Shown: in pieces, positions 28,910 through 49,637 of the stretch
Layout: each line of letters opens with the position of its first letter
How positions within the stretch are numbered: the stretch's first letter is position 1
From: an uncultured Bacteroidales bacterium
GTDB taxonomy: Bacteria > Bacteroidota > Bacteroidia > Bacteroidales > UBA932
DNA: 64,000 nt
Assembly (NCBI GenBank): GCA_900317845.1
Contig: ONII01000007.1
Coordinates: 35,818-99,817 of the forward strand
Reading direction: 5' to 3'
Program-made: the position numbers and the translations under genes
The notes under the pieces: model-generated
What the model was told of the DNA's origin: nothing
The model's input: the letters and a program-made list of their open reading frames with translations, nothing else
Database searches by the model: none

Positions 28910-30355
28910 ATGACAATGAAAAAACTATTCGCAGGCCTCATGGCGCTTGTGACGCTGTTGAGCTGCGAACAAAAGAAAGACGAAACCCTGGTCCTGTATT
29001 CGGAGGCCGATTTTGCCGGCCTTCGGGTGGGCTGTTCGGCCGGCAGCTATTATGAGCAGCATCTTTCGCCCCGGGAAGATATCGACCTGTTTATCATTAA
29101 CACGGAGGCCGACGGCATGCAGGCCCTGATGCAAGACAAGGTGGATGTCTTTGTGACGGACGAAGTAATGCTCACGCCGGAATCCATGCGCATGTACGGG
29201 GTAAAAAAGGCCCTGCGCGGGGAAGAGAGCTTTGACGTAGCCGTGGCCGTACGAAAGGGAAATACCCAGCTTCTGGAGCAGCTCAACGCATTTATCGCCC
29301 AGCCCTACATTCCGGACCTTGTAAATAAGTGGACAGAAGGGGCCTCGGTCAAGCTTCCGCCCATTCCGGAGGTTCCCGGGAACGCCACCCCGCTGCTGTG
29401 CTCCGTATGCGTGAACCTGGAACCAATCAGTTATGTGGGCGAGGGAGGCGAGTGGACGGGCCTGGACCCGGAACTAGCCCGGCGTTTTGCCGCCAGCCTG
29501 GGCCGGCCGCTGGAAATCCACTTCCAGGAGATTAGCGCCGCCATGATCGCCCTGGAAACCGGCCAGGTGGACATGATTGTCTCCTGCCTGTTCGTCACGG
29601 AAGAGCGCAAGAAATCCGTGGATTTTTCCATTCCCTACTATCATTGCCACCCCGGCTATTTTGTAAAAGACAAAGACAGCACGCACCGGATCAGTTTCTC
29701 CGAGCGCCTGCACATGAATCTGGTCACCGAGAACCGCTGGACGCTCATTACAGACGGCCTCTGGAAAACCCTGGAAATCACCCTCCTGTCCATCCTGTTC
29801 GGCTCCATCCTGGGCGGTCTTGTCTGTGCCGCCAAGCGAAGCCGCCGCAAATGGCTCAAGGGCCTGGCAGAACTCTATGGCGCCTTTATTGAAGGCATTC
29901 CCACGCTGGTGCTCCTGCTCCTGATGTTCTATGTGGTATTTGCCAACATAGGACTGGATGCCACCACGGTAGCCATTGTCACGTTCAGCTGCTGCTTTGC
30001 AGCATCGGCCGGAAGTATTTTTGACACGGCCATTTCCACCGTTCCCCACGGGCAGACGGAAGCCGGCCTGAGCCTGGGCTTCACGCCCCTGAAAACCTTC
30101 ACGGGCATTGTGCTGCCGCAGGCTGTACAAAAAGGCCTGCCGCTGTATATCGGCGCCTGCGTATCCATGCTCAAAGAGACCTCCATTGTGGGCTACATTG
30201 CCATCCAGGACCTCACCCGCGCAAGCGACCTGGTTCGCAGCCGCACCTTCGACGCCTTTATTCCCCTGGGCGTTGTCACCATCCTGTATTTTGTTGTGGC
30301 ATGGGTCATCCGCACCCTGCTTAACCTGGCCCTAAGAAAGAAGCAACATGATTAG
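28910..30355 (+). CDS. Amino-acid ABC transporter: receptor domains fused to permease
   Basis: The 481-residue protein starts with a lipoprotein-like signal (TLLSC). Residues ~25-150 resemble part of a type 3 solute-binding domain ([15 protein letters not shown]), and ~155-260 a second partial one ([27 protein letters not shown]). From about residue 270 a polar amino-acid permease of the HisMQ family follows with about five helices and the EAA-type loop ([22 protein letters not shown]). Such receptor-permease fusions are known for Gln/Glu uptake. It overlaps the ATPase gene by 8 bases. The substrate is likely a polar amino acid. Confidence 0.85.
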
Positions 30356-31418
30356 CATCAAGCATTTAAGCAAAACTTTCACCAATCCGGACGGCACCAA
30401 AATCACCGTCCTCAAGGATGTGAACTGTGAGATTGAGAAGGGGGAGGTGATTAGCATCATCGGCCCTTCCGGAACGGGGAAAAGCACGCTTCTGCGGGCC
30501 ATCAACATGCTGGAGCCGCCCACCAGCGGAGAAATCTGGGTGGACGGGGAGAACATCATGGCCAAGGGCTACCATCTGGACAAACTGCGCCAGAAAATGG
30601 GCATGGTTTTCCAGAACTTCAACCTTTTTGACCATCTGACGGTGCTGGAGAACATTACCTATGCCCCCACGCGCCTGTTAAAGGTTTCTGAGGAGGAGGC
30701 AAAAAAAGAAGCCCTGGAGCTGCTCAACAAGGTAGGGCTGGCGCAAAAGGCCGACGTTTACCCTTCGTCGCTTTCCGGCGGCCAGAAGCAGCGTGTGGCC
30801 ATTGCCCGTTCGCTGGCCATGCATCCGGAGGTTATCCTGTTCGATGAGCCCACATCGGCCCTGGATCCCACCATGGTGGGGGAGGTGCTCAGCGTCATGC
30901 GCCAGCTGGCCAAGGAGGGGCTTACCATGCTCATCGTCACGCACGAGATGCGTTTTGCCCGCGACGTAAGTTCGCGCATTTTCTTCATGAACGAAGGCGT
31001 CATCTACGAGGACGGCACGCCGCAGCAGATTTTCGAGCATCCCCGGCGCAGTGCCACCAAAGCCTTTGTTAACCGCATCCAGAAGCTGGTCTTCGAGATT
31101 GACGACAACTTTGACTTCCTGAGTGGCGACACGGAGGTAAAACGCTTCTGCATCAAATACAACCTGGGCGCCAAGGCCGATTTGATTGCCGATATCTCCA
31201 GGGAGATGCTCTTCACGCACCTCAAGGACATCCGGCCCATCACCGTGCGGCTCACGCATACGGAGCTCACCTCGGAAACCGCCCTGGACTTTATGGTGGA
31301 AGGCGCCACGGCGTCCCCGCTGCCCCAAGGCGATACCCTGAACGGCATCCGCGAAAAAGTACAAGGCATTGTGGAAGAGCCCACCTCCCGCGGATTCCGC
31401 GTAAAAATCCTGCTGTAA
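30348..31418 (+). CDS. Amino-acid ABC transporter ATPase with C-terminal extension
   Basis: A 356-residue ATPase with Walker [10 protein letters not shown] (about residue 39), Q-loop VFQNFNLF, signature LSGGQKQR and Walker [14 protein letters not shown], closest to GlnQ/HisP-type subunits. Unlike ~245-residue GlnQ it carries ~110 extra C-terminal residues with mixed alpha/beta pattern, possibly a NIL-like or ACT-like regulatory domain as in MetN. Energises uptake through the upstream receptor-permease fusion. Confidence 0.88.
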
Positions 31419-31580: not shown

Positions 31581-31588
31581 TACCTTTG
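31581..31588 (+). promoter_or_regulatory. -7 element of the surface lipoprotein operon
   Basis: TACCTTTG ends 6 bases before the microprotein ATG at 31595. A TTTG at 31551-31554 is present but the 26-base spacing is longer than usual. Confidence 0.55.
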
Positions 31589-31594
31589 TAAATT

Positions 31595-31717
31595 ATGAGC
31601 ATGTCGGATAAAAGAACATACGTTGTACCCACGTGCCAGGAGATTCTTCTGGCCGCTGGTTCCGGTGTTCTCCGCGTGTCCGGGTCCACGGAGGATGTAG
31701 ACTATGAAGATTTGTAA
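31595..31717 (+). CDS. 40-residue microprotein preceding a fimbrillin-like gene
   Basis: The ORF begins MSMSDKRTYVVPTCQEIL and ends STEDVDYEDL, 40 residues, without a signal peptide. It overlaps the next gene by 14 bases in another frame. Its shape (Lys/Arg-x-Tyr-x-x-Pro near the start, Gly/Ser-rich middle, acidic Asp-rich end) matches the very small proteins often found ahead of surface-protein genes in Bacteroidales. Promoter position and translational overlap support a real gene; function unknown. Confidence 0.6.
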   Translation: MSMSDKRTYVVPTCQEILLAAGSGVLRVSGSTEDVDYEDL

Positions 31718-33371
31718 GTACATAGCCCCGCTTCTTGTGCTGCTTGCCGCCTGCCAGCGGGAGGGGAGTCCTGTTACGCCAGAGACGCCCGTTCTGCAGC
31801 TGGTGGAGCATACGCTGTATGCCTCTACGCCCGGCGAGGATGAGCCGGCAACCCGCACCGTTGTATCGGCCCTCAACGATAAAAAGATTCTCTGGAGCGC
31901 CCACGAGCGCATCTCCATCCTGTCCGGCGGTGTCAACTACCTGTTCCAGGGCGAAAACGACGCCCCTGCCGCTACAGCCAGTTTCACCGGGACGGGCCCT
32001 GTGGACCTTGGCAGCTACATTGCCCTGTATCCGTACAATCTATCGGCCACGTATTCAGAAGGGTACGTCTCTACTACGCTGCCGGCCTACCAGCTCGGCA
32101 AGGCCGGTTCTTTTGGCGACGGCTACCTGATAACCGCCGATGATGCAACGGGGAACAGCCTCTCTTTCAAGCACCTGTGCAGCGGGCTGCGGTTTATGGT
32201 GAACCGGGACGATATCAAGGCCGTGACCATCCGCGGCAACAACGGGGAAAAGATCGCCGGAGATTTCCGCTTCCGCTTTGCGTCGGAAGATACGCCCGTG
32301 GTAGAAGCCGGCACGGAGGAATACGTAACCTTGAGGCCGTCGTCCGGAAGCACTTTTGAAGCAGGAAAGTATTATTATATCATCGTTCTGCCCACGGTAT
32401 TCTCCAAGGGATTCACCCTCATGGCCGACAATGGCAGCCAGGTGGGCGAACTTCGGTTCAATTCCAGTGTAACCTTCTCTGCAGGCCTGTTTAAAAATAT
32501 CACCGGAAACCTGAATGAAAGAATGACGTGGACAACGCCCTCAAGCCAGGTCTATTACGGCTATGAAAACAGTTTCTGTCTTCGACCCGGAAAAACCATC
32601 CGCTTTGATGTGAATCCCCGGAAGATTTATGGCACCTGGCAGCGCAGCGGCCTGCTGGCATCGGCCCCTGTTCCGGATGAGGCCGCGGTGCTATGGGGCG
32701 ACGGGTCCATTTCATCGGCATCAGTATCAGTCTATGACGGCAGTTTGACCGTCACGGCTTCCACCACGCCCGGCAGTGCGCTGGTGGCCATCAAGAAGGG
32801 GAGTACCATCCTCTGGTCTTACCTCATATGGGTGACGGAATCGGCCCCGGCGGAAACCACCCTTCCCAGCGGTGCCAAGGCACTGCCTGCCCTGGGTGGC
32901 AACTGTTATTTCCAGTGGGGGAGGAAGGATCCGCTGCTTTCTTCAACCGAAAGAGTAGAAAACCCGGAGTCCGGCTGCCTGGCATATTCCATCTTACACC
33001 CGACAGCATACATCAAGTTTAACTCTTCTAATTATGACTGGACGGATGTTATCGACTGGACTTTATGGGGAGAAGGCGTAGCCAAAACCGTATGGGACCC
33101 ATGCCCAACAGGCTACAGAGTTCCGGCAAAAGAGGATTATTCAGCGATAACCGCGTCTTTTTTAACCGGCAATTTTGAAGCGCTTGGCTATATCACAAAT
33201 GATGGTTACCATCTTTCAGACTATTTTTATTGGACAAGAAGCACGGGCATTCAAGGTGATGTGAGAAAGCTCTCATGGAGTTTGTCTTGGTACTCTGGTA
33301 CATCTGAGTCAGATATTATTTTGACGGATTACCGATACCCGGCCTATCCTGTCCGCTGTGTAAAAGAATAA
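31704..33371 (+). CDS. Fimbrillin-like lipoprotein with C-terminal FISUMP domain
   Basis: The 555-residue lipoprotein (lipobox LLAAC at residue 17) has an N-terminal fimbrillin/Mfa-like beta domain: an early TRTVV segment, IALYPYN near residue 110 and the LSFKHLCSGLRF motif near 150. A linker follows, then a Fibrobacter succinogenes major paralogous (FISUMP) domain at about 440-555 with WDPCPTGYRVP and the terminal VRCVKE. Bases after ~32990, encoding the FISUMP domain, look clearly more AT-rich than the rest. Inferred: a surface-exposed adhesin or fimbrial-type subunit. Confidence 0.8.
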   Translation: MKICKYIAPLLVLLAACQREGSPVTPETPVLQLVEHTLYASTPGEDEPATRTVVSALNDKKILWSAHERISILSGGVNYLFQGENDAPAATASFTGTGPVDLGSYIALYPYNLSATYSEGYVSTTLPAYQLGKAGSFGDGYLITADDATGNSLSFKHLCSGLRFMVNRDDIKAVTIRGNNGEKIAGDFRFRFASEDTPVVEAGTEEYVTLRPSSGSTFEAGKYYYIIVLPTVFSKGFTLMADNGSQVGELRFNSSVTFSAGLFKNITGNLNERMTWTTPSSQVYYGYENSFCLRPGKTIRFDVNPRKIYGTWQRSGLLASAPVPDEAAVLWGDGSISSASVSVYDGSLTVTASTTPGSALVAIKKGSTILWSYLIWVTESAPAETTLPSGAKALPALGGNCYFQWGRKDPLLSSTERVENPESGCLAYSILHPTAYIKFNSSNYDWTDVIDWTLWGEGVAKTVWDPCPTGYRVPAKEDYSAITASFLTGNFEALGYITNDGYHLSDYFYWTRSTGIQGDVRKLSWSLSWYSGTSESDIILTDYRYPAYPVRCVKE

Positions 33372-33391
33372 TTTTTAAAACTCTATGTAAT

Positions 33392-34396
33392 ATGAAAACC
33401 AAAGTAGTTACTCTCGTTTCCATCCTCCTTCTTTCCTGCACGGCAGCGTTCGTTTCGTGCAAGAAAAATGATAACACCGGGGATTCGCAACAACAAGCAA
33501 CCATCAAATTCGACGATGCCACTTACATCATGGGCCAATTTGCCGAATGGGATGACGACGGCAACCTGTTATTCCGCACAAAAGGTTATACGCTGAATGA
33601 AGCGGACGACACCGAGGTCTCCCTTTGCGTAGAGACCTGGGGGGAGGCGCTGAGCATGTTCAAAGAATGGATGCCGGAGGGCGCAGACTATACTGAGACC
33701 GCTACCTCCCTTACGTGGAGAATGACCGACGGATTTGGCAAACCCCAAGGTGAGGCCGTCCTGAACAAGGTAACCAACGGCACAATGGTAGCCGAAGCCA
33801 AACTCCCGTCCAACATTCCCTTCGTCCGTACCATCCGCTTTATCCCCAAGGACAAATGGCCCGAAAATAAAAATGATTTCGTATTCTTCGATATTATCAG
33901 CGCTGACGACTTATTGGCAGACTACTGGGCCGGCAACATCGTCGAAATAGAGAAGCCGACTCATCACGGCACCGGTAAATTTGTGGTGATGCGTGACTTT
34001 GACAATGAAACCAATGAGAAAGGACTCCTCATGCGCCTCCCGAAAAACCATAAGTCCGACCTCGTATCCGAAACCCTTACCGGAGGTTGGGAGTCCATCC
34101 GAAACCGTTGCAGCAAAGTGGGTGTGGTGAAGACGCTGAGGGATATATACCGCGCTGATATGGATTTTTGGGATCCGATTATGGAAAAAGCCGATTTTGA
34201 CACCCGCGACTACCATTATTTCTGCTGGGACGGCGGATACCATTGGTGGTATGGATACCAATACCAGAAAGTTAACTTTAAAACAGGTGACCGCACAGAC
34301 CTTGATACCTGGCATCCCAATTTCAGAGAGTGCTGGGCCTACCATTTCTGGCTGGAAAAGGATAAAAATGGTGTACTTCAGCTGATTATCAAATAA
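33392..34396 (+). CDS. Unrecognised lipoprotein
   Basis: A 334-residue protein with a signal sequence and Cys at FVSC (residue ~23), followed by KKNDN. The body is rich in Trp, Tyr and charged residues, with repeated short strands, and includes FRTKGYTLNEADDTE and YHYFCWDGGYHWWYGYQYQ. No known domain is recognised. It lies between the fimbrillin-like gene and the 800-residue lipoprotein in the same direction (20- and 8-base gaps), so it is probably part of the same surface complex or transcript. Confidence 0.7.
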   Translation: MKTKVVTLVSILLLSCTAAFVSCKKNDNTGDSQQQATIKFDDATYIMGQFAEWDDDGNLLFRTKGYTLNEADDTEVSLCVETWGEALSMFKEWMPEGADYTETATSLTWRMTDGFGKPQGEAVLNKVTNGTMVAEAKLPSNIPFVRTIRFIPKDKWPENKNDFVFFDIISADDLLADYWAGNIVEIEKPTHHGTGKFVVMRDFDNETNEKGLLMRLPKNHKSDLVSETLTGGWESIRNRCSKVGVVKTLRDIYRADMDFWDPIMEKADFDTRDYHYFCWDGGYHWWYGYQYQKVNFKTGDRTDLDTWHPNFRECWAYHFWLEKDKNGVLQLIIK

Positions 34397-34404
34397 TCAC
34401 TCAA

Positions 34405-36807
34405 ATGAAAAGGTATTTTTCAGCTTGCATAACCGCCCTTTCCATCTTGCTTGTGGCGGCTTGCGGCAAGGAACCCCCTGTAAGCCCTGATACGGGAGAG
34501 TATCCGTATTCCCTCTCTGTCTGGAACGAAGACTACACGGAAGAGCTCGCCCTGAGCAAGATGGGATTGGTAGAGCTGTCTTCCGTGGAATCCACCCCTT
34601 CATGGATTGGAGGCATTACCCTCTCGCAGGATCCGGAGAAAGAAATCACCTTTGCCCGGATCGAAGTCAAACGCACCCTGGATCTGCCTTCCGAGCAGAA
34701 GGCGGATATCAAGCTCAAAATGAACAGTGGAGCTACCGCGACCCTCCATCTGGTCCAATGGCCGGCAGGCCCTGCCTCCAACGCGCCTGTAGAGTCTATG
34801 AATAAAGAATTCGAGAAAGACTGGGCAAGTGCAAAGACCATCTCCCTTGTGCTGAAAACAACGGATTTGAACGGACGCGCGCAGGTTGTGACCGAACCCG
34901 TCCAGCTTCCTTGGGCGGCCAATAACACCCATCACCTTCCCTACGGTGAGATAACCAAGATGCTGGAACATAAAGATGACTGGCGGATGGTCTTCAATCT
35001 TACCGGTGTGGAAGCCCTTCCCAAGCGGCACTACTTTGCTTTGTACAACCGCTATACCGGGGTGTTGCGTATATTTTACTATTGGCACAGTGAGGATATT
35101 CCCACGGACGGGAACGACCATCTTTGGTCTTTCGAGCTGGACCGCAGCGTCTCCGAACACCAGGCCACCCAGTTCGCAGTACCTTATGAGGAGACGGCGA
35201 CAGACGCATATAAAAGATATGCCGCAGACCCGGTGCTGTTAACCCCCTATGCCAGCAGGGCCGACGAAGCACAGGGAGGAAAACTCCTTCCGGCTGTGGG
35301 TTGGTGGGCTTTCGATGTGAATATGGCCGCATCACGTAAGCACGATTTCTTCAGTGAGGCGCCCAAGGAGTTTACCGCAAAGATTGCTCCCAATATCTAT
35401 CACGAAGACAATGTGGCTCTGAATTCCATCCTGAAAGGCACGCTGGATGGAGCGTTGAAAGGAAAGGTAAACCTTGACGCCATGTACCCCAAAGGCACTA
35501 CCGGTTGGGGAAATGTCTTGAATGTAGCAGGTTCTACCTTAGGCGGTGGAATGACGAGTAATTTTGTCCTGCAATCTGCTTTTGGTAAAGCCGGTGATGG
35601 AACCCCCGGAAAAAAAGTCGGAGGAAGCATTATGGCTTTTGTCGGCGCTGCTTTTTCCGCCGGAGGAAAACTTGCAGAGAAAGAGTTGAAAAAAACGGAC
35701 GTTCCTTCAGAATTGGGCGAAATCAACGCTTCTATCAACCTGGACCTCAACGCTACGATGACCACAACCGGAATCACCGGCGGCGCCCGTGCCACTACCA
35801 TCCCTCCCACCACCCTGGAGATGGGGAATTTCTGGCAGAAGACCCGTTCCGACGAGCCCACGGGTTTTGGAAAAGGCGTATGGAACCTGAGGAAGCATCC
35901 GGTGGTGTATGTAGTGACGGATGCATACTGGTGTGAAACGCAATTTTCCGTCAAGTCATCCGAAAAACTCTTCAGGAAAGACAAGAAAGATTACTACTGT
36001 TACAAAACGGCTTCAGACCCGGATCGTCCTGGTCTTCGCATTGTCAGTTTCCTGGACCCCACTTCCGTGGAAGGCATTTACCTGAACGACGACCTGTTCG
36101 ACGCAGGTATCAACTCTTGTGAAGTGGAACTTACCTATGGCATCTATCCTTCTTCGGAGGAGGGCTATACCAATGCCTTCAGGAGTTCTCTGGGGCTGAA
36201 TACGGACTTGTCCTGGCGCTTTTCCTACAAGAATAAGTTCGTTTCTTCCGACCAGTCTCAGATAGACTTCAAACTTTGTGAGAAGAAAAGGACCGATGCC
36301 ATTTTCGGCAGTACCGAGATTGAACCCGAACTTACAGACTACGTAGCTTACCGCCGGAGCGAAAAGATTATCTGCGACACGCTCATCCGCCGCTACTATG
36401 GTCCTTCCATGTTCTATACCAAGGAATTTGCAAATCCTTACCAGGTGGATGTGGTGCATTATGTCAGCGAACCCCAGATTGACGTTCCCTTCGACAATGT
36501 CGCCAAGGATGCCAAGCATAAGCCGGAAAAAATGATCATCGATCCCCAACTGCCGGATTTGGTGGTCACCGCCGTACTGAAGGTAGAGGGCATGGATCAC
36601 ACCGACGACGAAGAGCAGACCATGGTGAACACCCTCCGATTCGTTCCGGAAATCAAGTATATCAAGTTGTCCCAGCTGAACAGTATCTGCAATAGCATTG
36701 CGTCCCACCAGATGAAGAATATAACCGGGAAATCCATTGATGTGTCCTGGACATTCAAGGACGAGCAAATTAAAAAGATACAAGACTTTAGGAATGCATT
36801 TAAATAA
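34405..36807 (+). CDS. Large lipoprotein with BACON-like N-terminus, function unknown
   Basis: An 800-residue lipoprotein (lipobox LVAACGK). Residues ~30-125 have the look of a BACON domain (ESTPSWIGGITLS ... HLVQWP). A Gly/Ala-rich hydrophobic stretch lies around 365-430 (NVAGSTLGGGMTSNF, GGSIMAFVGAAFSAGG), flanked by strand-rich regions, which recalls a membrane-inserting segment. No catalytic motif is recognised. The stop overlaps the next start by 1 base (TAATG), showing tight coupling with the BMP-like gene. Confidence 0.7.
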   Translation: MKRYFSACITALSILLVAACGKEPPVSPDTGEYPYSLSVWNEDYTEELALSKMGLVELSSVESTPSWIGGITLSQDPEKEITFARIEVKRTLDLPSEQKADIKLKMNSGATATLHLVQWPAGPASNAPVESMNKEFEKDWASAKTISLVLKTTDLNGRAQVVTEPVQLPWAANNTHHLPYGEITKMLEHKDDWRMVFNLTGVEALPKRHYFALYNRYTGVLRIFYYWHSEDIPTDGNDHLWSFELDRSVSEHQATQFAVPYEETATDAYKRYAADPVLLTPYASRADEAQGGKLLPAVGWWAFDVNMAASRKHDFFSEAPKEFTAKIAPNIYHEDNVALNSILKGTLDGALKGKVNLDAMYPKGTTGWGNVLNVAGSTLGGGMTSNFVLQSAFGKAGDGTPGKKVGGSIMAFVGAAFSAGGKLAEKELKKTDVPSELGEINASINLDLNATMTTTGITGGARATTIPPTTLEMGNFWQKTRSDEPTGFGKGVWNLRKHPVVYVVTDAYWCETQFSVKSSEKLFRKDKKDYYCYKTASDPDRPGLRIVSFLDPTSVEGIYLNDDLFDAGINSCEVELTYGIYPSSEEGYTNAFRSSLGLNTDLSWRFSYKNKFVSSDQSQIDFKLCEKKRTDAIFGSTEIEPELTDYVAYRRSEKIICDTLIRRYYGPSMFYTKEFANPYQVDVVHYVSEPQIDVPFDNVAKDAKHKPEKMIIDPQLPDLVVTAVLKVEGMDHTDDEEQTMVNTLRFVPEIKYIKLSQLNSICNSIASHQMKNITGKSIDVSWTFKDEQIKKIQDFRNAFK

Positions 36808-37823
36808 TGCGATTTTCTTTCTCATACATTAGCACCGTTCTTCTCCTCCCGGTTCTGCTGGCCGGGTGCAGCAAGGGGCCGGTTTCCGAACCGGCGCCCC
36901 GGGAGCTGACGGTGCTTATCGGCACGGACGGCTACGGCGACGGAAGTTATAACGACACCATGTTGGAGGGCATCCTGGGCTTCTGCAAGGACCATCCGGA
37001 TGTGAGTCTGAGCCTCCAGCAGCCGGAGAGCATTGCCGATGCCGGGAAACGGCTGGATGCGTGGCTGGCAAAGGAGGGGAGCGGGGACCGCGCCCTTATC
37101 CTTGTCAGCAACACGTACGAGGATATCCTGAAGGGGAAACCGGCCCCCAAGAACGGCCGGGTGCTCATCCTGGAAACCGATGACGTTTTCCCCGGGCATT
37201 CCTCCTACGTCATCCGCCGCTACGGCGCCTCCTGGCTGTGCGGTGCCATGTCCCGCATCTTCGTGGGCATCATCGTCAAGGCCATGGACGGCAACGACAT
37301 GATTGAAGAGAGCGCCCGCGGCTTTGCCGACGGCCACAGCGCAGCTTCTGACCAGGAAACACACACCTGGACGCTGGCAAATGGCCCGGAAGGATTCGGC
37401 ATGCGGGACAGCACCTACCGTTTCGTCCACAAGAAGTATCAGGAGCTTTACTCCACCGGAGAATTCTTTGGCGACATTTTGTTTTTCCCCCTTTTGGGCG
37501 GGTCCCTGCCCGGCCTTTTTGACTATAGCCGGTACAACGGCTTTATCCATATCGCCGGGATGGACGTGGACTGTACGGCCTACAATCCCGGTGTTGTGCC
37601 TTACTCCCTGTGCGTGAATAATCATCTTGCCCTGAAGATGTATCTGGAGGACTGGCTCGCCGGAAAGTCCTGGCCGGAGCACCAGGAGTTCGGCCTGGAA
37701 AGCGAATATATTCAGGTTGTTTCAAACAAACAGTTCAATTTTGAGGGCCAGGACATGGCCGCCCTGTATGAAACATATTATTCCCAGGCCGTAGAAAAGG
37801 AGAAAGCGTATGAAAAGGAATAG
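36807..37823 (+). CDS. BMP-family (PnrA-like) periplasmic-binding lipoprotein
   Basis: The 338-residue lipoprotein (lipobox LLAGC at residue 21) resembles the basic membrane protein/Med family of type 1 periplasmic-binding folds: IGTDGYGDGSYNDTMLEGI near residue 40, a LVSNTYED turn near 100, and a hydrophobic-Gly hinge around residue 235. BMP proteins usually bind purine nucleosides for an ABC transporter, but no permease or ATPase is nearby, so a sensing or adhesive role is as likely. It overlaps the next gene by 14 bases. Confidence 0.65.
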   Translation: MRFSFSYISTVLLLPVLLAGCSKGPVSEPAPRELTVLIGTDGYGDGSYNDTMLEGILGFCKDHPDVSLSLQQPESIADAGKRLDAWLAKEGSGDRALILVSNTYEDILKGKPAPKNGRVLILETDDVFPGHSSYVIRRYGASWLCGAMSRIFVGIIVKAMDGNDMIEESARGFADGHSAASDQETHTWTLANGPEGFGMRDSTYRFVHKKYQELYSTGEFFGDILFFPLLGGSLPGLFDYSRYNGFIHIAGMDVDCTAYNPGVVPYSLCVNNHLALKMYLEDWLAGKSWPEHQEFGLESEYIQVVSNKQFNFEGQDMAALYETYYSQAVEKEKAYEKE

Positions 37824-39897
37824 ACTGCTACATGCCCTTGTTCCGCTCTTGCTGCTGTGCGCCTGTAGCGGGAAAGACCCGCTGGAGGTGGAGCAAAAAC
37901 TAAGCTCCTACAAGGTGGCCGTGGTGTTGCCGGAATCGGAGAAGGCGGAACTGTCCAAGATTGTGGACTGGGCGCAGGAAACCATCAAAGCCGCCCAGAA
38001 AGGGCAGGAGAGCCGGATAGAGCTGGAGCTGGAATGGATAGACGAGGATGGCGCCACCCTGGCCCGGGACATTGCACGGATTACCCACGACAATTCTTAC
38101 GCGGCGGTTATCGGCCCGCGGTACAGCCGTAACGCCCGCGTCATTGCCAAAGAAAGCCTTTCCTACCGCATGCCCGTTTTGGCGCCGTCGGTCACCTCTA
38201 CGGAATTCCAGCGCATCTACGCGGGAAGCAATATGGGGGAGCCCAATATCTTCTGCCTGGCCGAGAACGATATGGCGCAGTGCCAGGCCATGCTCTCCAA
38301 GGCCCGCGCCAACAACTATTCCCGCATCTCCCTTATCTCCAGGGACGGGAAAGCGGACGACTATGCCGCCTCCTTCCAGTCGTACTACGCCTACATGGCG
38401 CGCGAAATGGATATGGAGGTCGAGGAAACCTATTTCTATGAGAACAAGGCCGAGCTGGAAGCCGCTCTTCAGAAGGCCATCGCGGCCGAAGAAGAAGCGC
38501 CCTTTCCCGGCGTGCTCTTCTTTGTCCCTTCATCGGCCCGGGATATGCTGGATTTTGACGATGCCCTCAAGCTGAACGAGGAGAGCCAGTACCTTTCCAT
38601 CGTATGCACGGATATGGCCTACGACCTGTCCCTGGAAGGGAAACTGAAGAACTATGACTACGTGGGCACGGCCCTCTCTTCCAGGCCCGGAGAAGGATTT
38701 GACGTTGCCTGGAAAAACCGCTACGGAACGGTCCTTCCCGGCGGTTATGCCCAGCTTTACGACTGCTTTTATCTGCTGGCCATGGCGGCAGCCGTGGTAG
38801 AAAGCGGCGATGCGCCGTCCGTACGGGAAGCCCTTTTAAAACTCACATCGGGAGACAAGGCTTCTACGCCCATCTATCCCTGGACGACTTCCGGTATGCG
38901 GAATGCCTTCCAGGCGGCCAGGGCGGGGGATTACAAGCATATTACCGGCGTTTCCGGACCGTTGGAATTTGAAAGCCAGACGCATATCTGCCAACTGGGC
39001 ACCACCTACAGCACCTGGACCTATACGGACGGGAAATTTGTAGAGACCGGTCGATTTTCACGCGACTATACCGGCAGCGACCTCTGGAACTGGACCACCA
39101 GCCAGATTGAGGATATGTACGACGAGGAGGCGGTCGATCTCCCGTATCCGCCCCTTGAGGATCAGTTTGCGGTGGTGATAGCTACGTCTACCGGCCGCAA
39201 CAACTATCGGCACCAGGCCGATGCCCTGGCCCAGTACCGGATGCTGAAAGGCTTTGGCTACGACGACGACCATATTATCCTCATCCTGGAGGACGACCTG
39301 GGCTCCGACGTGCACGTCACCCCGGGCGGAGAGAACCTCCGTCCCGGCGCGGTAATCGACTACAAGACCAGCCGGGTAACGCCGGAAGACCTCCGGAACA
39401 TCTTCTCCGGCACGGTCACGGAGCGCACCCCCGAGGTGGTCCGGGGCGGCACCGGCACCAACGTCTTCCTTTTCTGGAGCGGCCACGGCGCCCGGGACAA
39501 TGTGATTATGTGGGCCGATGATAAATTGGAGGCAGAGACTTTCCGCGGCATCCTGGAGGCCGCCGAGGGGAATTACAGGAAACTACTGGCCGTCATGGAA
39601 ACCTGCTACAGCGGTTCCATCGGCAAGTACTGCGAAGGCCTGCCGGGCGTACTTTTCCTCTGCGCAGCCGGTAGCGGCGAAACCTCGCACGCAGACGTAA
39701 TTGAAGACGGCATTTACCTTTCCAACCGCTTTACGCGCGTGTTCCGCAGCGAAGTAGAGGCCAATCCGGCCATCTCCCTCCATCACCTTTACTACCAGCT
39801 GGCCACCCACACCACGGCCTCCCATGCCGGCCTGTACAACGACGCCTGCTATGGGAACGTGTATCGCAACACCGTGGAAGAGTTCCTGAAGCGATAA
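37810..39897 (+). CDS. Lipoprotein fusing a periplasmic-binding receptor to a C13 (legumain-like) protease domain
   Basis: The 695-residue lipoprotein has its lipobox LCAC at Cys19. Residues ~30-400 form a Leu/Ile/Val-binding-type receptor: KVAVVLPESEKAEL, AAVIGPRYSRNARVIAKE, MPVLAPSVTSTEF. Residues ~447-695 match peptidase family C13 (legumain, GPI transamidase): a FAVVIATSTGRNNYRHQ start, catalytic His559 in FWSGHGA and Cys599 in METCYSGS, 40 residues apart as in the family. Seen: both domains and the intact dyad. Inferred: a ligand-controlled surface or periplasmic Asn/Asp-specific protease or transpeptidase. Confidence 0.85.
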   Translation: MKRNRLLHALVPLLLLCACSGKDPLEVEQKLSSYKVAVVLPESEKAELSKIVDWAQETIKAAQKGQESRIELELEWIDEDGATLARDIARITHDNSYAAVIGPRYSRNARVIAKESLSYRMPVLAPSVTSTEFQRIYAGSNMGEPNIFCLAENDMAQCQAMLSKARANNYSRISLISRDGKADDYAASFQSYYAYMAREMDMEVEETYFYENKAELEAALQKAIAAEEEAPFPGVLFFVPSSARDMLDFDDALKLNEESQYLSIVCTDMAYDLSLEGKLKNYDYVGTALSSRPGEGFDVAWKNRYGTVLPGGYAQLYDCFYLLAMAAAVVESGDAPSVREALLKLTSGDKASTPIYPWTTSGMRNAFQAARAGDYKHITGVSGPLEFESQTHICQLGTTYSTWTYTDGKFVETGRFSRDYTGSDLWNWTTSQIEDMYDEEAVDLPYPPLEDQFAVVIATSTGRNNYRHQADALAQYRMLKGFGYDDDHIILILEDDLGSDVHVTPGGENLRPGAVIDYKTSRVTPEDLRNIFSGTVTERTPEVVRGGTGTNVFLFWSGHGARDNVIMWADDKLEAETFRGILEAAEGNYRKLLAVMETCYSGSIGKYCEGLPGVLFLCAAGSGETSHADVIEDGIYLSNRFTRVFRSEVEANPAISLHHLYYQLATHTTASHAGLYNDACYGNVYRNTVEEFLKR

Positions 39898-41220: not shown

Positions 41221-41497
41221 ATGAAAAGAAAGATATACGACCAGCTGCTTCTTTGGAAAAACAAACGCAAAGGCTAGTCAGCCATGATGATAGAAGGCGC
41301 CCGCCGCGTGGGCAAGAGCTACATCGTCAAGGAATTCGCCCAGAAAGAATACAAGAGCTACATCCTCATAGACTTCTTCAAGGTTGGGGACGACATCAAA
41401 GACCTTTTCAAGAACTACAAGGACAACCTGGACATGCTCTTCACATACCTGAGCACCTACTTCTCTACCAAGCTCTATCCCCGGGAGTCCATCATCG
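41221..41497 (+). pseudogene. Remnant of a DUF4143-type AAA ATPase
   Basis: The reading begins MKRKIYDQLLLWKNKRKG and continues after an in-frame TAG at 41275 with MMIEGARRVGKSYIVKEFA, the N-terminal Walker A region of the AAA/DUF4143 family usually ~400 residues long. Homology breaks off after LYPRESIIV at about 41497, where the sequence joins an unrelated gene end. Interrupted and truncated, it should not make a working ATPase. Confidence 0.75.
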
Positions 41498-41920
41498 TTT
41501 TGTCGTGGTTTCGAACTCATTTCAGAGGCATTCAAGGAACAAGGTCTCGAAGTCCCCACCCTGGTGGAAGAGCAGGGCGGCGTTCGTTTCATTATCAAGC
41601 GTAAACTCTTCTACGGCATCCAGCAAGGTGGTAGGATAGACCCCAAAACCGGCAGGCTCATCAAGGCCGATGACACCAAAAATGTCACCAATGATGTCAC
41701 CAAAAAGTTAACTGAAAGACAGCGAGTTATACTTGAAATGCTGCCTATCGGTGACATAGAAAATGTCACCAAAAAAGAAAGAGTAAACACAGTTATGTTA
41801 GCGGCTAGATTTGGAGTAGTCCTGCGCACTATTAAGCGTGACATGAAAGTCCTCCAGGACCTGGGGCTAGTAGAGCACGTTGGCCCATCTAACGGCGGCT
41901 ACTGGAAGCGCCTGAAATAA
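41498..41920 (+). pseudogene. C-terminal remnant of an AlbA/RecG-like DNA-binding protein
   Basis: In a different frame from the preceding ATPase remnant the sequence reads RGFELISEAFKEQGL, then VEEQGGVRFIIKR, then a winged-helix end with FGVVLRTIKRDMKVLQDLG and GGYWKRLK. This is the C-terminus of the AlbA_2/ATP-binding 'RecG-like' regulator family, whose N-terminal ~350 residues are missing. An ATG at 41564 could start a 118-residue remnant protein. A perfect terminator follows. Confidence 0.65.
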
Positions 41921-42969: not shown

Positions 42970-44088
42970 TCAATGATTGATGAGTTTGCCGATAAATTCA
43001 CGGACAGATAGCTCATCTTTCCCGTGTTTAATGAGAAACTTAAATAGTTTTTCTTTATCTTCTTTGATGTCTCCAGTCTTAATAATTTGGAGATTATTGA
43101 GGCCGAACAACGTCGATAGATTCCAGTCTGTCATTCTCTCCAAAGATCTTTTGATTTGGAGTTCAGAAGCAGCATCACGAGTAAAGATTGTAATGTCTTT
43201 TCGGTGAGTATTGGCAAAGTTTGTTTGTTGGAGGAAAAAGGCCTTGAAGTACTGGCGGTCATTTTCGCCGATAGAATGGCCAAAGATAACGACTTCGTCA
43301 GCATCTTGCAGGTCAGCCACAAGAGCCGGAGGATTATATGACGGGTCAAAAGATTTCTGAAGGAAATCGTAGTTTTCTAAAATCTCCCTTTCATCACGTG
43401 TGCCAATGATTATTTTGCCATCGCTACAGCTACCATGCAGATAATGGATGTCAGCATCTTTGGCAGAATACACAAAATGCTTGACATTCGTATAGTTAAA
43501 GGAATATATGGCCACAGAACTTGTGCCTTCACTTTCAATTGCCAAGAATTGTAGAACTTGATATGCTACGGTATCTCTTGCTTCCCGCTCATACTTAAGA
43601 GCCTCCAGATATTTACAAAGACCCTCTCTAATCATTTGAAGAGCCTTTCTGTCTCGCCATACAGGGGATTGAGATAAGTCTTCCTTGTATGGAACATATA
43701 GCGAGCGAATAACGTTATTCGCGACGAGAATCACCCGCTTATCAACCAAGGACTGAACAATATCTACCTGGTCTCTGTACATTCCATAGTCCCACTTGTA
43801 TGGCTCGAAACCCTTCAAGAATTCTTTCTCCTCCTCAGTTATGAAGTCCTTGGGGTTGCTGGGAGAGGCCATGTCCATATAGTACTTCAGGAGTTCATTC
43901 TCAAGGTCATACCATTTAACGGCATCACGATTATCCGGCCAACACTGGTTCAGATGATGAATAAGCGGCGCAGGATAGTCTTTAGGGCAGAATTCAGACT
44001 CCCAAAAGTCTTTATATGACGTTTTGAGGCCGAGGTCAAGGTCAAAGCCATTACCAAGAATGAGGACTATTTTGCGGTGCTCGGACAT
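42970..44088 (-). CDS. AbiH-family abortive infection protein
   Basis: The 372-residue protein begins MSEHRKIVLILGNGFDLDL and continues GLKTSYKDFW, the hallmark of AbiH phage-resistance proteins, and has IYSFNYTNVKHF near residue 215, YLHGS after it and VVIFGHSIGENDRQYF near residue 275, the family's conserved spots. The mechanism is not established. ATG 44088 is preferred to TTG 44091. It lies 6 bases after hsdR and is visibly more AT-rich than the hsd genes, suggesting separate acquisition as a defence add-on. Confidence 0.83.
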   Translation of the reverse strand: MSEHRKIVLILGNGFDLDLGLKTSYKDFWESEFCPKDYPAPLIHHLNQCWPDNRDAVKWYDLENELLKYYMDMASPSNPKDFITEEEKEFLKGFEPYKWDYGMYRDQVDIVQSLVDKRVILVANNVIRSLYVPYKEDLSQSPVWRDRKALQMIREGLCKYLEALKYEREARDTVAYQVLQFLAIESEGTSSVAIYSFNYTNVKHFVYSAKDADIHYLHGSCSDGKIIIGTRDEREILENYDFLQKSFDPSYNPPALVADLQDADEVVIFGHSIGENDRQYFKAFFLQQTNFANTHRKDITIFTRDAASELQIKRSLERMTDWNLSTLFGLNNLQIIKTGDIKEDKEKLFKFLIKHGKDELSVREFIGKLINH

Positions 44089-44094
44089 CAATTG

Positions 44095-47000
44095 CTACAA
44101 GTATTCGAGGTTGTCGAGCATGCGGGTGATGAGGGTGCGGAAGCCGGCTTTGAAGGCGTCGTTCTGCTGGTATTCGCGGTAGAGGGACATGTCGCCTTTG
44201 CGCTTTTGGCGGATGATGCGGTCGATGATCATGGCCATAGCGGCTTCGACGGCTTGCTGGTCGGGGTTGCCGATGACGAGACTCTGGTAGTCGGCATCGT
44301 TGGCTACGGCTTTGGTGATGTTTACCAGTTTTTCCTTCTGATCGTCGGGGGTGGCTTCCCAGCCGCGGAACCAGTGCTCGTTGAATTCTTTGATGATTTC
44401 GTCGAGGGGGTCTTTGTTGGGTTCGTCGGTGGGGCCTGCATTTACCATTGTGGCCTTCAGGGGGTCGATGGTGGATTCGCCGGGGTCGAGGACGATGGTT
44501 TCGTTAAGGGCGGTGCGGCGGAGACCATAGGTGTTAAGGTCTACGGAATCCAGGAGGTCCTTGATGTCTTCCATGCCGGGGCCGGTGACGATGAGCTGCG
44601 GGATAAGCAGGCGGAGGAACCAGAAGAGTTTTTCCCAGTCCACTACCTCGTAGTCCATGATGGCGGCAACGCGGGAGTAGATCTTCACGAACTGCTTGCA
44701 CTTCATCTTGAAGTCGGCCTTGCCGTTCTCAGGCCATTCAATTTCGGTGTTGAAGCGGAAGGCGGCACGGTCTATGATGGGTGCGAACTCATCGGCGGGA
44801 GCACCATGGACGTACAGTTCTATAAAGGCGTTCACCTCGTCCATATCAAAGACGCCGAAGCTCAGGAGGGTTGTCTTGAGCTGGTGCAGGATATTGACAT
44901 CGGTGGCCTCGGAGAGCGTGGTTGCCGTGTAGAACGGGTCGAATGCTTCTTTGATGCCTTCCTTAGTGTTGTAGAAGTCCAGGATGAACAGATCCTCGCT
45001 CAATTTCCCAAGTTCCGGTGCGGAACGGTTGAGACGGGACAGAGCCTGCACGGCAAGTACACCGTCCAGGGGCTTGTCGATATACATGGCGGCCAGCTTG
45101 GGCTGATCGAAGCCGGTGATGTATTTGTTGGCCACTACGAGGATGCGGTTCTCGTCCTTATCGAATTCTTCGGCTGTCTTGGTATCCGGGAAGCCGTTAA
45201 TCTGGGCTTCTGTATAATCGCGCCCGCCAACATTCTTGGTGCCGGAGAAGGCGATGAGGATGTTGTAGGGCAGTTTCTTTTCTTTCCGAAGTTCGCTCAG
45301 GGCCATGTAGTATGAGATGGCACACTCGATGTCTTTAGTCACCACCAAGGCTTTTGCGTGGCCCTTTAGTTTGTGGTTACGGTACATTTTGGCATCGAAG
45401 TGCGTGAGCATCACCTCTGCCTTGGCCTTGATGGTCTTGGGCTCTCGTTCCACGTAGCGGCGCAGCATCTTCTGGGCACGCTCGGTTTCGTATTCCGGAT
45501 TACCCTCGATGCTCTTGGTGAGTTCGTAGTAACTGCGGTAGGTGGTGTAGTTAGTGAGCACGTCCAGGATGAATCCTTCCTCGATGGCCTGTTTCATGCT
45601 GTAGAGGTGGAAGGGATGGAACTTGCCTTCTTCATCCTCTGTGCCGAAGCGCTCCAGGGTTTCTTTCTTGGGCGTTGCGGTGAAAGCGAAATAGGAGCAG
45701 TTCTTGCTCATCTTGCGATCCTTCATCAATTTCTCCAGGAGGGCATCGGTGTCTCCTCCATCCTGGTCTGCATCTTTCTGTACGGCAGCATTCAGTTTGT
45801 CCGCCGCAATGCCGGACTGAGAGGAGTGAGCCTCGTCAATGATGATGGCGAAGTTGTGGTCGCTGACGTCAGCAATGGTGTCGCAGATGAAGGGGAACTT
45901 CTGGATGGTGGTGATAATGATGCGTTTCCCTTGCTCGATGGCCGTCTTCAATTCCTTGGAGGAATCTGCATGGGCGACAATCTTGTCGCTGTGACCGAAT
46001 GCCTTGATATTGCCGGTGATCTGTTTGTCCAGCAGGCGGCGGTCGGTGACCACGATGGCAGAATCAAACAGCGCCATATCCACCGCCTTTGCCCTGACGG
46101 CATCCATAGAATCCGGGCATAGGCCGATGAGTTTGTAGGCTAGCCAGGTGATGGAATTGGATTTGCCGGAACCGGCGGAGTGCTCGATGAGGTAGGTCTT
46201 GCCTACACCCACGGAGGCTACGTCTGCGTTCAGTTTTGATACGACATCCAGTTGGTGAAAGCGTGGGAAGATAAGGCGCTTGGCATTGCGCATGATATGC
46301 GGCACCACTTTTCCGGTCTTGGCTTCACCGTAGTCGAACATCACGTAGTTCATCAGGATGTCGGCGATGGTATCTTTCTGCAGGAAGTATTTCCAGATAT
46401 AGGAGGTTTTGTAAGAGCCGTCCTCGCTCACTGGATTACCTGCACCCTGACCATTAGGCAGACCCTTGTTGAAGGGCATAAAGAAAGTATCCTTTCCAGC
46501 CAACTTGGTTGTAAAGTACACTTCATCCTTGTCCAGGGTGAAATGTGCAAGGCAGCGGCCGTAGTTCAGCAGGGGCTCACGGGGATTCCGCTCTTCTTTG
46601 TATTGCTTTTGTCCGTTATACTTAGCCGTCTGGTAGGTCCAGGGATTCTTGAGTTCGAAGGTAAAGAGAGGCAGACCATTCAGGAATACCACCATATCTA
46701 TCTCGTATCCGGGGTTCAGCAGGGAGAAGGTCTGCTGGCGGGTAATGGAGAACTGGTTTTTGGCGTATTTGGCGTGGCTGGCCTGGCTATCGGCAGGTGA
46801 AGGTTTTGGGAAGAACAGGGTGAGGTGGATGTTATCCACGTCGATGCCTTCACGGAGGAGTTTGATGATGCCGAAGTTGGTAATGTCGCTGCTAATCTGA
46901 CGCTCAACGGCAGCCTTAAGATCCTTACCACGATAATCTGCTAGTACATCCTTCTGGGAGGATTCCAGGAAGGACCAGAGCCGACGGGTGTCGATGGCCA

Positions 47001-47169
47001 ACTTGCTGGGCATATCTTTGGGACGGCCCCAGTAGTACTGGTCCGCGCCCGGATGCTGAGCATCAATATCTTCAATGCCGGCGGCCTTCCGTTCCTCTAC
47101 GGTACTGCCCACCAATGCTTTTTCTATCAGGTATTCAAATGCCTGCTCGATGGTCTGTGAAAGCATCAT
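44095..47169 (-). CDS. hsdR: Type I restriction enzyme R subunit
   Basis: The 1024-residue HsdR has the N-terminal endonuclease core with the PD-(D/E)xK elements EIDMVVFLNGLP and FTFELKN near residues 155-175, then superfamily 2 helicase motifs: Walker A SAGSGKSNS near residue 330, DEAHSSQSG, TATPKK, and QALSRLNR. It translocates DNA and cuts when the HsdM-HsdS complex finds unmodified sites. Start overlaps the fic stop (ATGA). Confidence 0.95.
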   Translation of the reverse strand: MMLSQTIEQAFEYLIEKALVGSTVEERKAAGIEDIDAQHPGADQYYWGRPKDMPSKLAIDTRRLWSFLESSQKDVLADYRGKDLKAAVERQISSDITNFGIIKLLREGIDVDNIHLTLFFPKPSPADSQASHAKYAKNQFSITRQQTFSLLNPGYEIDMVVFLNGLPLFTFELKNPWTYQTAKYNGQKQYKEERNPREPLLNYGRCLAHFTLDKDEVYFTTKLAGKDTFFMPFNKGLPNGQGAGNPVSEDGSYKTSYIWKYFLQKDTIADILMNYVMFDYGEAKTGKVVPHIMRNAKRLIFPRFHQLDVVSKLNADVASVGVGKTYLIEHSAGSGKSNSITWLAYKLIGLCPDSMDAVRAKAVDMALFDSAIVVTDRRLLDKQITGNIKAFGHSDKIVAHADSSKELKTAIEQGKRIIITTIQKFPFICDTIADVSDHNFAIIIDEAHSSQSGIAADKLNAAVQKDADQDGGDTDALLEKLMKDRKMSKNCSYFAFTATPKKETLERFGTEDEEGKFHPFHLYSMKQAIEEGFILDVLTNYTTYRSYYELTKSIEGNPEYETERAQKMLRRYVEREPKTIKAKAEVMLTHFDAKMYRNHKLKGHAKALVVTKDIECAISYYMALSELRKEKKLPYNILIAFSGTKNVGGRDYTEAQINGFPDTKTAEEFDKDENRILVVANKYITGFDQPKLAAMYIDKPLDGVLAVQALSRLNRSAPELGKLSEDLFILDFYNTKEGIKEAFDPFYTATTLSEATDVNILHQLKTTLLSFGVFDMDEVNAFIELYVHGAPADEFAPIIDRAAFRFNTEIEWPENGKADFKMKCKQFVKIYSRVAAIMDYEVVDWEKLFWFLRLLIPQLIVTGPGMEDIKDLLDSVDLNTYGLRRTALNETIVLDPGESTIDPLKATMVNAGPTDEPNKDPLDEIIKEFNEHWFRGWEATPDDQKEKLVNITKAVANDADYQSLVIGNPDQQAVEAAMAMIIDRIIRQKRKGDMSLYREYQQNDAFKAGFRTLITRMLDNLEYL

Positions 47170-48341
47170 TTCGCTTCGTTTTTAAGTTCATTCACAAATG
47201 CCAGCCCTTTTGCTGTAAGCAAATACTTCTGGCGAGGATGGCGGGGGGAATCAGGATATAGCATCCTGACAAATCCTTTCCCAATAGCGGGTGAGAGGTA
47301 TAGCTTCAAAAAGCTTTCCCTGTCCTTTAATCCCATCTCTGCCAGCATTTCCTTGACAGACAACTGTTTGTCATTTATCGCATACACCAACTTAATGATA
47401 TTGGCATTGTCGGTGTGCAACTTATCGGGGGCTTGTCGGGTACTTGTCGGGTACTTGCCGGGTGACAATGCCGTGCTTGTCGGGTCTGCGAGATTGGGCT
47501 GAACGCTCCATTCCTGCGAAGGGTGGATATGCAGATAGCGGTTGCGCAAGTCCCACTGTTCGCCTAAAAGGAGGTTGCGGAAGAAGCGCTCCAGATAGAG
47601 CGGGGTGTAGTCAATCCCTTTCACGGCATTCCTGTAATTGGCACGGACCAAGGCATTGCGGAAGTACCAGGAATGGTTTGCAAACATATCGTTGTTTACC
47701 TGGAATCCGATATCCCGCAAATAAAGAATGGTAAAGACAGCTGTCGTACGTGTATTACCTTCGCAAAAAGCGTGGATTTGCCAAATTCCGGATACGAATT
47801 GCGTAATGTGGGATATCAGGTCATCCTTCGTCAGTCCTTTGTAACTGAAGCTGCGCTCCTGCTCGATGTCGTAATCCAATGCCCGGCGCAAGTCTTCCCA
47901 ATTCAGATAATGGACGGTATCGTTCTCCAACACCCATTCTTTTTTGGTGATATCATAATCACGGATTTTGCCGGCATGTTTAAATACGCCTTCAAAAATC
48001 CTCCGGTGCAATGCGATAATTCCTTGCGAGCTAAAGTCAAGGGACGCGGAGGAGAGGATCTTTGTGATGTTGGCCGATACTTTGTCGGCCTCCTGCATCT
48101 GCTCATCGTCCGGTTCACGGGATTGTTTGGACTGGTAGTAAGTTTTTATCAGTTCCCGGGCCTGGTCAATGTCTATCTCGCCTTCGATATGCTTACGGGC
48201 CGTTTCCTTCAGATACTCGGACGTCTTCAGCCCATCGACGGCCTGAAGGCCAATGGCGGTCCGCCAGAGAGTCGCTTTCTCCTTCTTGTCAGGTTCTCCT
48301 TGCCTGATATACTCGTCGAAATCTATGTAGCCGTCTTTCAT
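47166..48341 (-). CDS. Fic-domain protein inside the hsd operon
   Basis: The 391-residue protein has a Fic/DOC domain whose active-site loop reads HAFCEGNTRTTAVF (His190), matching HxFxxGNxR with Ala replacing the usual Pro and Thr replacing the usual second Gly. A C-terminal winged-helix-like region (about 310-391) follows. Fic enzymes AMPylate or otherwise modify proteins. Overlap of ATGA with both hsdS and hsdR shows it is translated as part of the restriction operon. Whether it modifies the Hsd proteins or a host target is unknown. Confidence 0.88.
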   Translation of the reverse strand: MKDGYIDFDEYIRQGEPDKKEKATLWRTAIGLQAVDGLKTSEYLKETARKHIEGEIDIDQARELIKTYYQSKQSREPDDEQMQEADKVSANITKILSSASLDFSSQGIIALHRRIFEGVFKHAGKIRDYDITKKEWVLENDTVHYLNWEDLRRALDYDIEQERSFSYKGLTKDDLISHITQFVSGIWQIHAFCEGNTRTTAVFTILYLRDIGFQVNNDMFANHSWYFRNALVRANYRNAVKGIDYTPLYLERFFRNLLLGEQWDLRNRYLHIHPSQEWSVQPNLADPTSTALSPGKYPTSTRQAPDKLHTDNANIIKLVYAINDKQLSVKEMLAEMGLKDRESFLKLYLSPAIGKGFVRMLYPDSPRHPRQKYLLTAKGLAFVNELKNEAK

Positions 48342-49636: not shown

Positions 49637-49637
49637 T

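Follow-up and report, generated by a model that had tools for sequence, protein, structure and literature searches.

A legumain-type peptidase fused to a periplasmic-binding receptor and encoded with a second binding lipoprotein in uncultured Bacteroidales

The C13 peptidase family (PF01650) includes legumain, which uses a Cys189-His148-Asn42 triad and in which residues 190 and 215 have tuning roles (PMC9604545), and the glycosylphosphatidylinositol (GPI) transamidase PIGK/GPI8. The lipid-anchored clan CD proteases of Bacteroidales include the C11 enzymes fragipain and doripain, and C11 surface lipoprotein proteases cleave or activate the CDCL pore-formers and BcpT (PMC9308784, PMC11169675). 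BSAPs of the same order are surface MACPF lipoproteins (PMC12853789), and among the BMP/PnrA nucleoside-binding proteins (PF02608), BmpA and BmpD bind nucleosides via Phe27, Asn28 and Asp225 among others (PMC13325309). Here we describe, in a stretch of 64,000 nucleotides from an uncultured Bacteroidales bacterium (GCA_900317845.1, contig ONII01000007.1, positions 35,818 to 99,817; the whole stretch is called the window, and coordinates count from its first letter), a forward-strand gene at 37810..39897 for a predicted lipoprotein, C0, which joins a type 1 periplasmic-binding half to a complete C13 domain. This anatomy is firm, and so is the genetic linkage of C0 with a second, BMP-like binding lipoprotein, C1, which together form a conserved gene pair. 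Both domains of C0 are known families, and the protein falls among the clan CD lipoprotein proteases of Bacteroidales, being lipid-anchored like fragipain and doripain; it differs from them in belonging to family C13, in having a receptor domain, and in sharing its locus with a second receptor and with candidate substrates. A preliminary description of this DNA, made from the sequence alone, knew of no bacterial system with this pairing of receptor and protease, and no description of the fusion, the gene pair or the arrays around it was found among the papers listed in the literature searches, which covered few subscription papers and included no query joining C13 with MACPF.

The C0 frame begins with ATG and encodes 695 amino acids. 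Its signal peptide (37810..37866) runs to the lipobox L-C-A-C19, read directly; of the 45 rows aligned, 7 are gapped at this site, and all 38 distinct relatives with a residue there have Cys19. The periplasmic-binding half follows at residues ~30-400 (37897..39009) and the C13 domain at residues 452-679 (39163..39846). Pfam reports only two families in the protein and no C11 domain: Peptidase_C13 PF01650, with an E value of 2.5e-35 over residues 452-679 (122.7 bits, cut-off 22.8), and ANF_receptor PF01094, with 7.5e-6 over residues 69-344, where 25.7 bits is barely above the cut-off of 25.4. Among 20 aligned relatives, the window protein included, PF01650 was matched at E <= 0.01 in all 20, ANF_receptor in 18 and Peripla_BP_6 (PF13458) in 11. 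A profile of these 20 sequences matched legumain (7.6e-57), GPI transamidase (1.1e-45) and the LivK-type binding protein 3td9 (1.3e-8) in the PDB, and an AlphaFold model built on the same alignment reached a mean pLDDT of 82.6 and a pTM of 0.74. With this model, Foldseek retrieved legumain 4awb (E 4.1e-18, TM-score by target 0.84) and the branched-chain amino-acid binding protein 4mlc (E 2.2e-15, TM 0.74, root-mean-square deviation (rmsd) 6.1). A chance C13-like motif is ruled out by these full-length profile and fold matches. An assembly chimera is ruled out as well, since the fusion recurs in 44 mapped genes, and the first 28 relatives to be compared span identities of 27-96%. Recoded stops, raised by two fusion genes listed with one internal TAG each, were discarded as a candidate because each gene has an unbroken frame of ~700 amino acids spanning both halves.

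C0 thus resembles legumain in its C13 fold and in its catalytic residues, and differs from it in having the N-terminal binding-protein half and the lipid anchor and in lacking a legumain-like C-terminal prodomain, as the protein extends no more than 16 residues beyond the C13 match. Because the prodomain is absent, something else must regulate the C13 domain. The likeness to PIGK/GPI8 is likewise confined to the C13 domain; the chain ends 16 residues past it, without the C-terminal membrane helix of the transamidase. By family, the periplasmic-binding half is proposed to bind a small ligand between its two lobes.

The active site was compared over 45 distinct sequences, which represent 44 genes, one of them split by a frame shift. 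His559 (codon 39484..39486, in SGHGA) is kept in 43 of the 43 distinct relatives covering the site, leaving out one Ala row that is the end of the frame-shifted N-terminal fragment, and Cys599 (39604..39606, in ETCYSGS) in 42 of 42, with a His-Cys spacing of 40. In the model His559 follows strand E550-557 and Cys599 follows strand E591-596, which are core strands. The preliminary description had named this dyad and spacing, the lipoprotein fusion itself and a type 1 receptor at its N-terminus, and had proposed Pfam search, structure prediction and a count of fusion genomes and neighbours as checks; the C13 profile match, the legumain fold with His and Cys after core strands, and the ANF_receptor/Peripla_BP_6, 3td9 and 4mlc matches bear it out on each of these points. 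Aligned to legumain, N465-Y-R467 (39202..39210) supplies the equivalents of the triad residue Asn42 (Asn in 40 of 44 covering rows, Asp in 4) and of Arg44 (kept in 44/44), a residue with a role in the S1 pocket. The position after the catalytic Cys, Glu190 in legumain, is Tyr (38/42) or Phe (4/42) throughout the C0 family, and the equivalent of residue 215 varies, with Thr in 20 of 42. The site that we take to match legumain Asp231 is Asn in 28 of 42 sequences and Asp in 14. From the conserved residues the enzyme is predicted to be active and to have a P1 pocket of the Asx type, and the pattern would be compatible with a protease and a ligase alike and does not decide between them.

C1 is encoded directly upstream (36807..37823, forward strand, 338 amino acids), and its gene overlaps that of C0 by 14 bases. 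Of the mapped fusion genes, 40 have upstream sequence, and in 39 of them the gene immediately 5', in the same orientation, is C1 (36 identified from the gene maps, and L024, L128 and L129 by profile search); the remaining four (L021, L069, L070 and L076) stand at contig ends. The two frames overlap in 30 of 36 mapped pairs, a figure that depends on the start codon picked. The preliminary description had treated the single chain as the receptor-protease; its receptor-plus-C13 reading stands but is incomplete, for the conserved unit is the C1-C0 pair inside runs of lipoprotein genes. Its suggestion of ligand-controlled proteolysis or transpeptidation at the bacterial surface is plausible. C1 appears BMP/PnrA-like: with E values of 1 or below, 5 of 21 family members match PF02608 (the best at 1.5e-13), the C1 of the window not being one of them, and the family profile matches solved Bmp-type proteins (6.4e-6), with 7x0r Lbp, 4pev, 9q1u BmpA and 4iil among the matches. 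An aromatic-Asn/Asp motif at the first Bmp ligand place and an Asp-rich C-terminal motif at the other are partly kept and vary among members. Unlike the BMP/PnrA proteins, C1 is encoded with a protease. When the C0 and C1 profiles were compared with one another, the signal peptides alone aligned. Distances within the C1 and C0 families are correlated (r 0.94 over 36 pairs, with 0 of 2000 permutations as high), and where C1-C0-C1-C0 stand in tandem, every copy has retained a partner of its own type. Mean identity is 48% in the C13 half, 33% in the periplasmic-binding half and 27% in C1, and this higher conservation of the C13 half speaks for a constant output with a varied input.

The genome of the window carries four fusion genes (PF01650 E 8.6e-49 to 4.1e-36). 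PF01650 was matched in 9 of the 61 genomes of the genus sample, in 9 of 149 genomes of the family (8 above the cut-off) and, phylum-wide, in 19 of 395, with every match outside the window genome being weak (best 2.3e-12). The full-length C0 profile was found in 37 of 398 family genomes at 0.001; 28 of these were better than 1e-50 and, counted from the match table, fall in five genera. As this search scored two candidates per genome, copy numbers are undercounted in it. In the order, 14 of 247 genomes match, two of them outside the family and at full length (G932 and G926). The named relatives of C0 come from metagenome-assembled genomes of uncultured Bacteroidales or Bacteroidia, most with RUG names, which denote rumen, or rumen in the title.

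The idea that all bacterial C13-like proteins have a periplasmic-binding half was rejected, as the weaker PF01650 matches (best 4.8e-14) show none at E <= 0.001. The strong C13 frames have it except for pieces at contig ends (L008, L038/L105), one piece in a flank (L087), and the remnants L106 (1501-3058) and L107 (1366-1866), in which C13 sequence comes right after C1-like sequence and the binding-protein half is gone; these look like internal deletions of the C1-C0 pair. At L108, L109 and L029-L031 (near 10000-10140) the C13 domain is reduced to its final ~40 residues, with the same 3' end each time, and the fusion locus seems prone to loss. A phage or plasmid origin is unsupported, as the fusion had no match in plasmid or phage collections or in PHROGs and PADLOC searches. 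A viral fold library returned mainly caspase-like or binding-protein folds for the C0 model, and its top row, which spans most of the model with an rmsd of 18.9, carries no name.

In the window the pair belongs to a cassette of five lipoprotein genes (31704-39897), which overlap or are separated by gaps of <=20 bases. The other three, all on the forward strand, encode lipoproteins of 555 amino acids (31704..33371), fimbrillin/FISUMP-like at most, with matches below cut-offs and the fimbrillin likeness seen by eye; of 334 amino acids (33392..34396), with no known domain; and of 800 amino acids (34405..36807), also with no known domain and with a model (pLDDT 44.6) too poor for fold search. A hidden MACPF identity of the 800-residue protein was considered and found unsupported, since it has no Pfam match at E <= 1. 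A homologue of the 555-residue protein at L032 has a weak RicinB_lectin_2 match below the cut-off. The C28 copy holds the same five kinds of genes in a different order, on C37 a C1-C0-C1-C0 series leads into genes for lipoproteins of 449, 829, 825, 828 and 579 residues, and in G047 more than ten same-strand genes, mostly for predicted lipoproteins, surround one pair. Lipase-like proteins (PF03583) occur near the pair at L127 and L074, and below the cut-off at L133; L127 also has a Peripla_BP_4 protein near the pair, and at L132 an N-acetylmuramidase lipoprotein (PF11860, 1.7e-55) adjoins it on the opposite strand.

The partner families had been drawn up on loci retrieved because they hold the fusion, and we therefore searched the genus sample of 61 genomes for them. 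The family of the 800-residue lipoprotein was present in 5 of 9 fusion-positive genomes (G000, G005, G023, G027 and G047) vs 0 of 52 fusion-negative ones (Fisher p 2e-5), and five of its nine matches adjoin a pair. The array-lipoprotein family A5 was present in 4 of 9 vs 1 of 52 (p 0.001), the sole fusion-negative holder being G037, which has an array remnant. These partner families are thus confined almost wholly to fusion-positive genomes, with p values that are weakened by the relatedness of the genomes. A5 proteins are array lipoproteins of 700-870 amino acids with the consensus FWDVVGQLV, seen at ~11000-46400 of contig C81 in G047, a genome with 16 A5 matches, fragments included; no Pfam domain above cut-off was found in the members scanned. 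A protein of ~360-390 amino acids, membrane-type by eye, adjoins arrays of several genomes, at L065 (4239-5411), L023 (6008-7087), L164 (3496-4638) and L167 (9522-10664).

Some arrays also contain MACPF proteins, which match complement C6 and perforin by profile. In G000, G047 and G932 all seven MACPF matches lie 2.0-14.9 kb from a fusion gene on the same strand, and at L067 a MACPF protein (PF01823, 3.1e-7) is the third part beside the pair; in G005 and G055 the matches are on other short contigs, where linkage to the pair cannot be judged. In the genus sample MACPF proteins were found in 4 of 9 fusion-positive vs 3 of 52 fusion-negative genomes (p 0.007). They can be set beside the BSAP/MACPF lipoproteins of Bacteroidales, for which the outline of PMC12853789 names no receptor-protease pair. 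A [YFW]GTH...LG motif was seen in 6 of 11 frames, a set that includes wrong or partial ones, and GTH is present in all 8 rows of the MACPF alignment. One fusion-negative genome, G037 (L177, 11753-16862), holds the end of the C37-type array of G000 with no fusion gene and with a first MACPF frame shorter than that of G000, which suggests that its array is a product of partial loss.

In C0 of the window the lipid Cys begins the sequence C-S-G-K-D-P. Surface-exposed lipoproteins follow a rule (LES) of a C-X-K-(D/E)2-type or acidic motif after this Cys (PMC5080379). A looser K/R-(D/E) pattern was found there in 20 of 34 C0 and 13 of 32 C1 sequences and in 11 of 19 and 4 of 12 members of two partner clusters, vs 7 of 64 in a control set of further lipoproteins predicted at these loci, spurious ORFs included. 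These counts give weak support to a surface exposure of C0, C1 and the partners.

We tentatively favour, with confidence somewhat short of even, a two-subunit, lipid-anchored, sensor-gated cysteine endopeptidase that matures or activates the lipoproteins of its own operon, probably at the outer-membrane surface. The small ligands of C1 and of the binding-protein half of C0 would, judged by family, be nucleoside-like and amino-acid-like, and the two receptors would jointly control the C13 domain of C0. The C13 domain would cut after Asn or Asp, its substrates would be lipoproteins of the same operon, matured or activated by the cut, and the cutting would probably take place on the surface of the outer membrane. 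Perforin-type (MACPF) proteins are among the partners in some arrays, which would be fitting for an antibacterial weapon. Lipoprotein maturation is proposed here on the precedent of the C11 proteases that activate Bacteroidales toxins. That the enzyme is active, prefers Asn/Asp, is gated by ligands, forms a complex with C1, sits at the surface and has the partner lipoproteins as its substrates is inferred. If true, the pair would offer a tangible and testable example of extracytoplasmic proteolysis under ligand control, and would join C11 as a second protease class activating Bacteroidales toxins.

Several observations weigh against this reading. On the side of the pair, the mapped locus L136 is without C1, the C1 frames of G122 and G189 are short or interrupted by stops, the C1 of the window has itself no Pfam match at E <= 1, several genomes retain only fragments of the fusion, and shared descent alone can yield the co-divergence of C1 and C0. 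On the side of the partners, four of the nine genus matches of the 800-residue family lie away from any pair, and the relation of the window's 800-residue protein to MACPF in profile-profile search covers N-terminal residues 2-128 only, at a probability of 70%. MACPF matches occur in only 5 of 30 fusion-positive genomes; Pfam and profile-profile searches revealed no MACPF protein in the window cassette, which in this differs from the BSAP/MACPF systems. Three of the four genus genomes with both MACPF and the fusion (G000, G005 and G055) represent one array type, so that the genome counts are not independent. Three MACPF-positive genomes of the genus (G037, G029 and G048) have no fusion, and in the stretches of G029 and G048 that were read there is no array either.

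A bolder version, which we regard as unlikely, is a bacterial surface counterpart of danger-sensing pathways that run from receptor to protease to pore: a two-receptor complex would sense metabolites, such as the nucleosides and amino acids that lysed cells release, and switch on a legumain-type protease. The protease would activate pore-forming and other effector lipoproteins of neighbouring genes against competing cells. Rather unlikely in our view is a role in adhesin or pilus maturation, with the C13 domain trimming lipoprotein subunits for assembly and the receptors acting as assembly or quality sensors. Gingipains process type V pili and provide a parallel. They are likewise of clan CD (PMC4357240), and the window cassette has the fimbrillin-like/FISUMP-like lipoprotein at 31704-33371, with homologues at L019, L022/L126 and L139; its fimbrillin likeness, however, is under every cut-off, and its cluster has only 6 members in the mapped loci.

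Nutrient scavenging, in which a peptidase and orphan binding proteins would capture peptides, amino acids and nucleosides, is improbable. Such binding proteins do take nucleosides (PMC13325309) or, by family, amino acids, and a lipase-like cluster protein is encoded directly 3' of the fusion in five distinct loci, two of them above the LIP cut-off. Scavenging nevertheless does not fit with MACPF proteins and large lipoproteins of no known domain, a narrow P1 preference would suit digestion badly, and an ABC permease was recognised in no cluster common to the loci, a weak objection since most neighbours were unscanned. We hold it to be quite improbable that the C13 domain is a ligase or transamidase joining surface proteins to one another or to a surface amine, in the manner of GPI transamidase or plant asparaginyl ligases. 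The GPI transamidase match would accord with ligation, legumain itself ligates near neutral pH (PMC9604545), and the long lipoprotein runs offer possible substrates; legumain, however, outscores GPI transamidase in the profile search, and the candidate substrates are lipid-anchored already. Least probable of all is a self-contained signalling module in which the C13 domain cleaves C1 or itself and releases a ligand-bound fragment, for although it would account for the two binding proteins being tightly paired and diverging together, it leaves the partner lipoproteins unexplained.

Outside the cassette, the forward strand at 28910-31418 carries a 481-residue lipoprotein-like ORF fusing SBP_bac_3 to an ATP-binding cassette (ABC) permease, followed by an ABC ATPase. 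One TACCTTTG was found at 31581-31588, before the cassette, and its spacing to the upstream TTTG looks wrong for a promoter. Beyond the cassette, short ORFs at 41253-41920 (forward strand), comprising the start of an AAA_14 ATPase and then a helix-turn-helix piece, look like the remnant of a truncated gene. A defence-like island follows on the reverse strand (42970-51971), with an AbiH protein (PF14253, E 1e-28), the type I restriction protein HsdR (44095-47169), a Fic protein (47166-48341, PF02661) and, beyond the latter, two same-strand ORFs of 437 and 777 amino acids.

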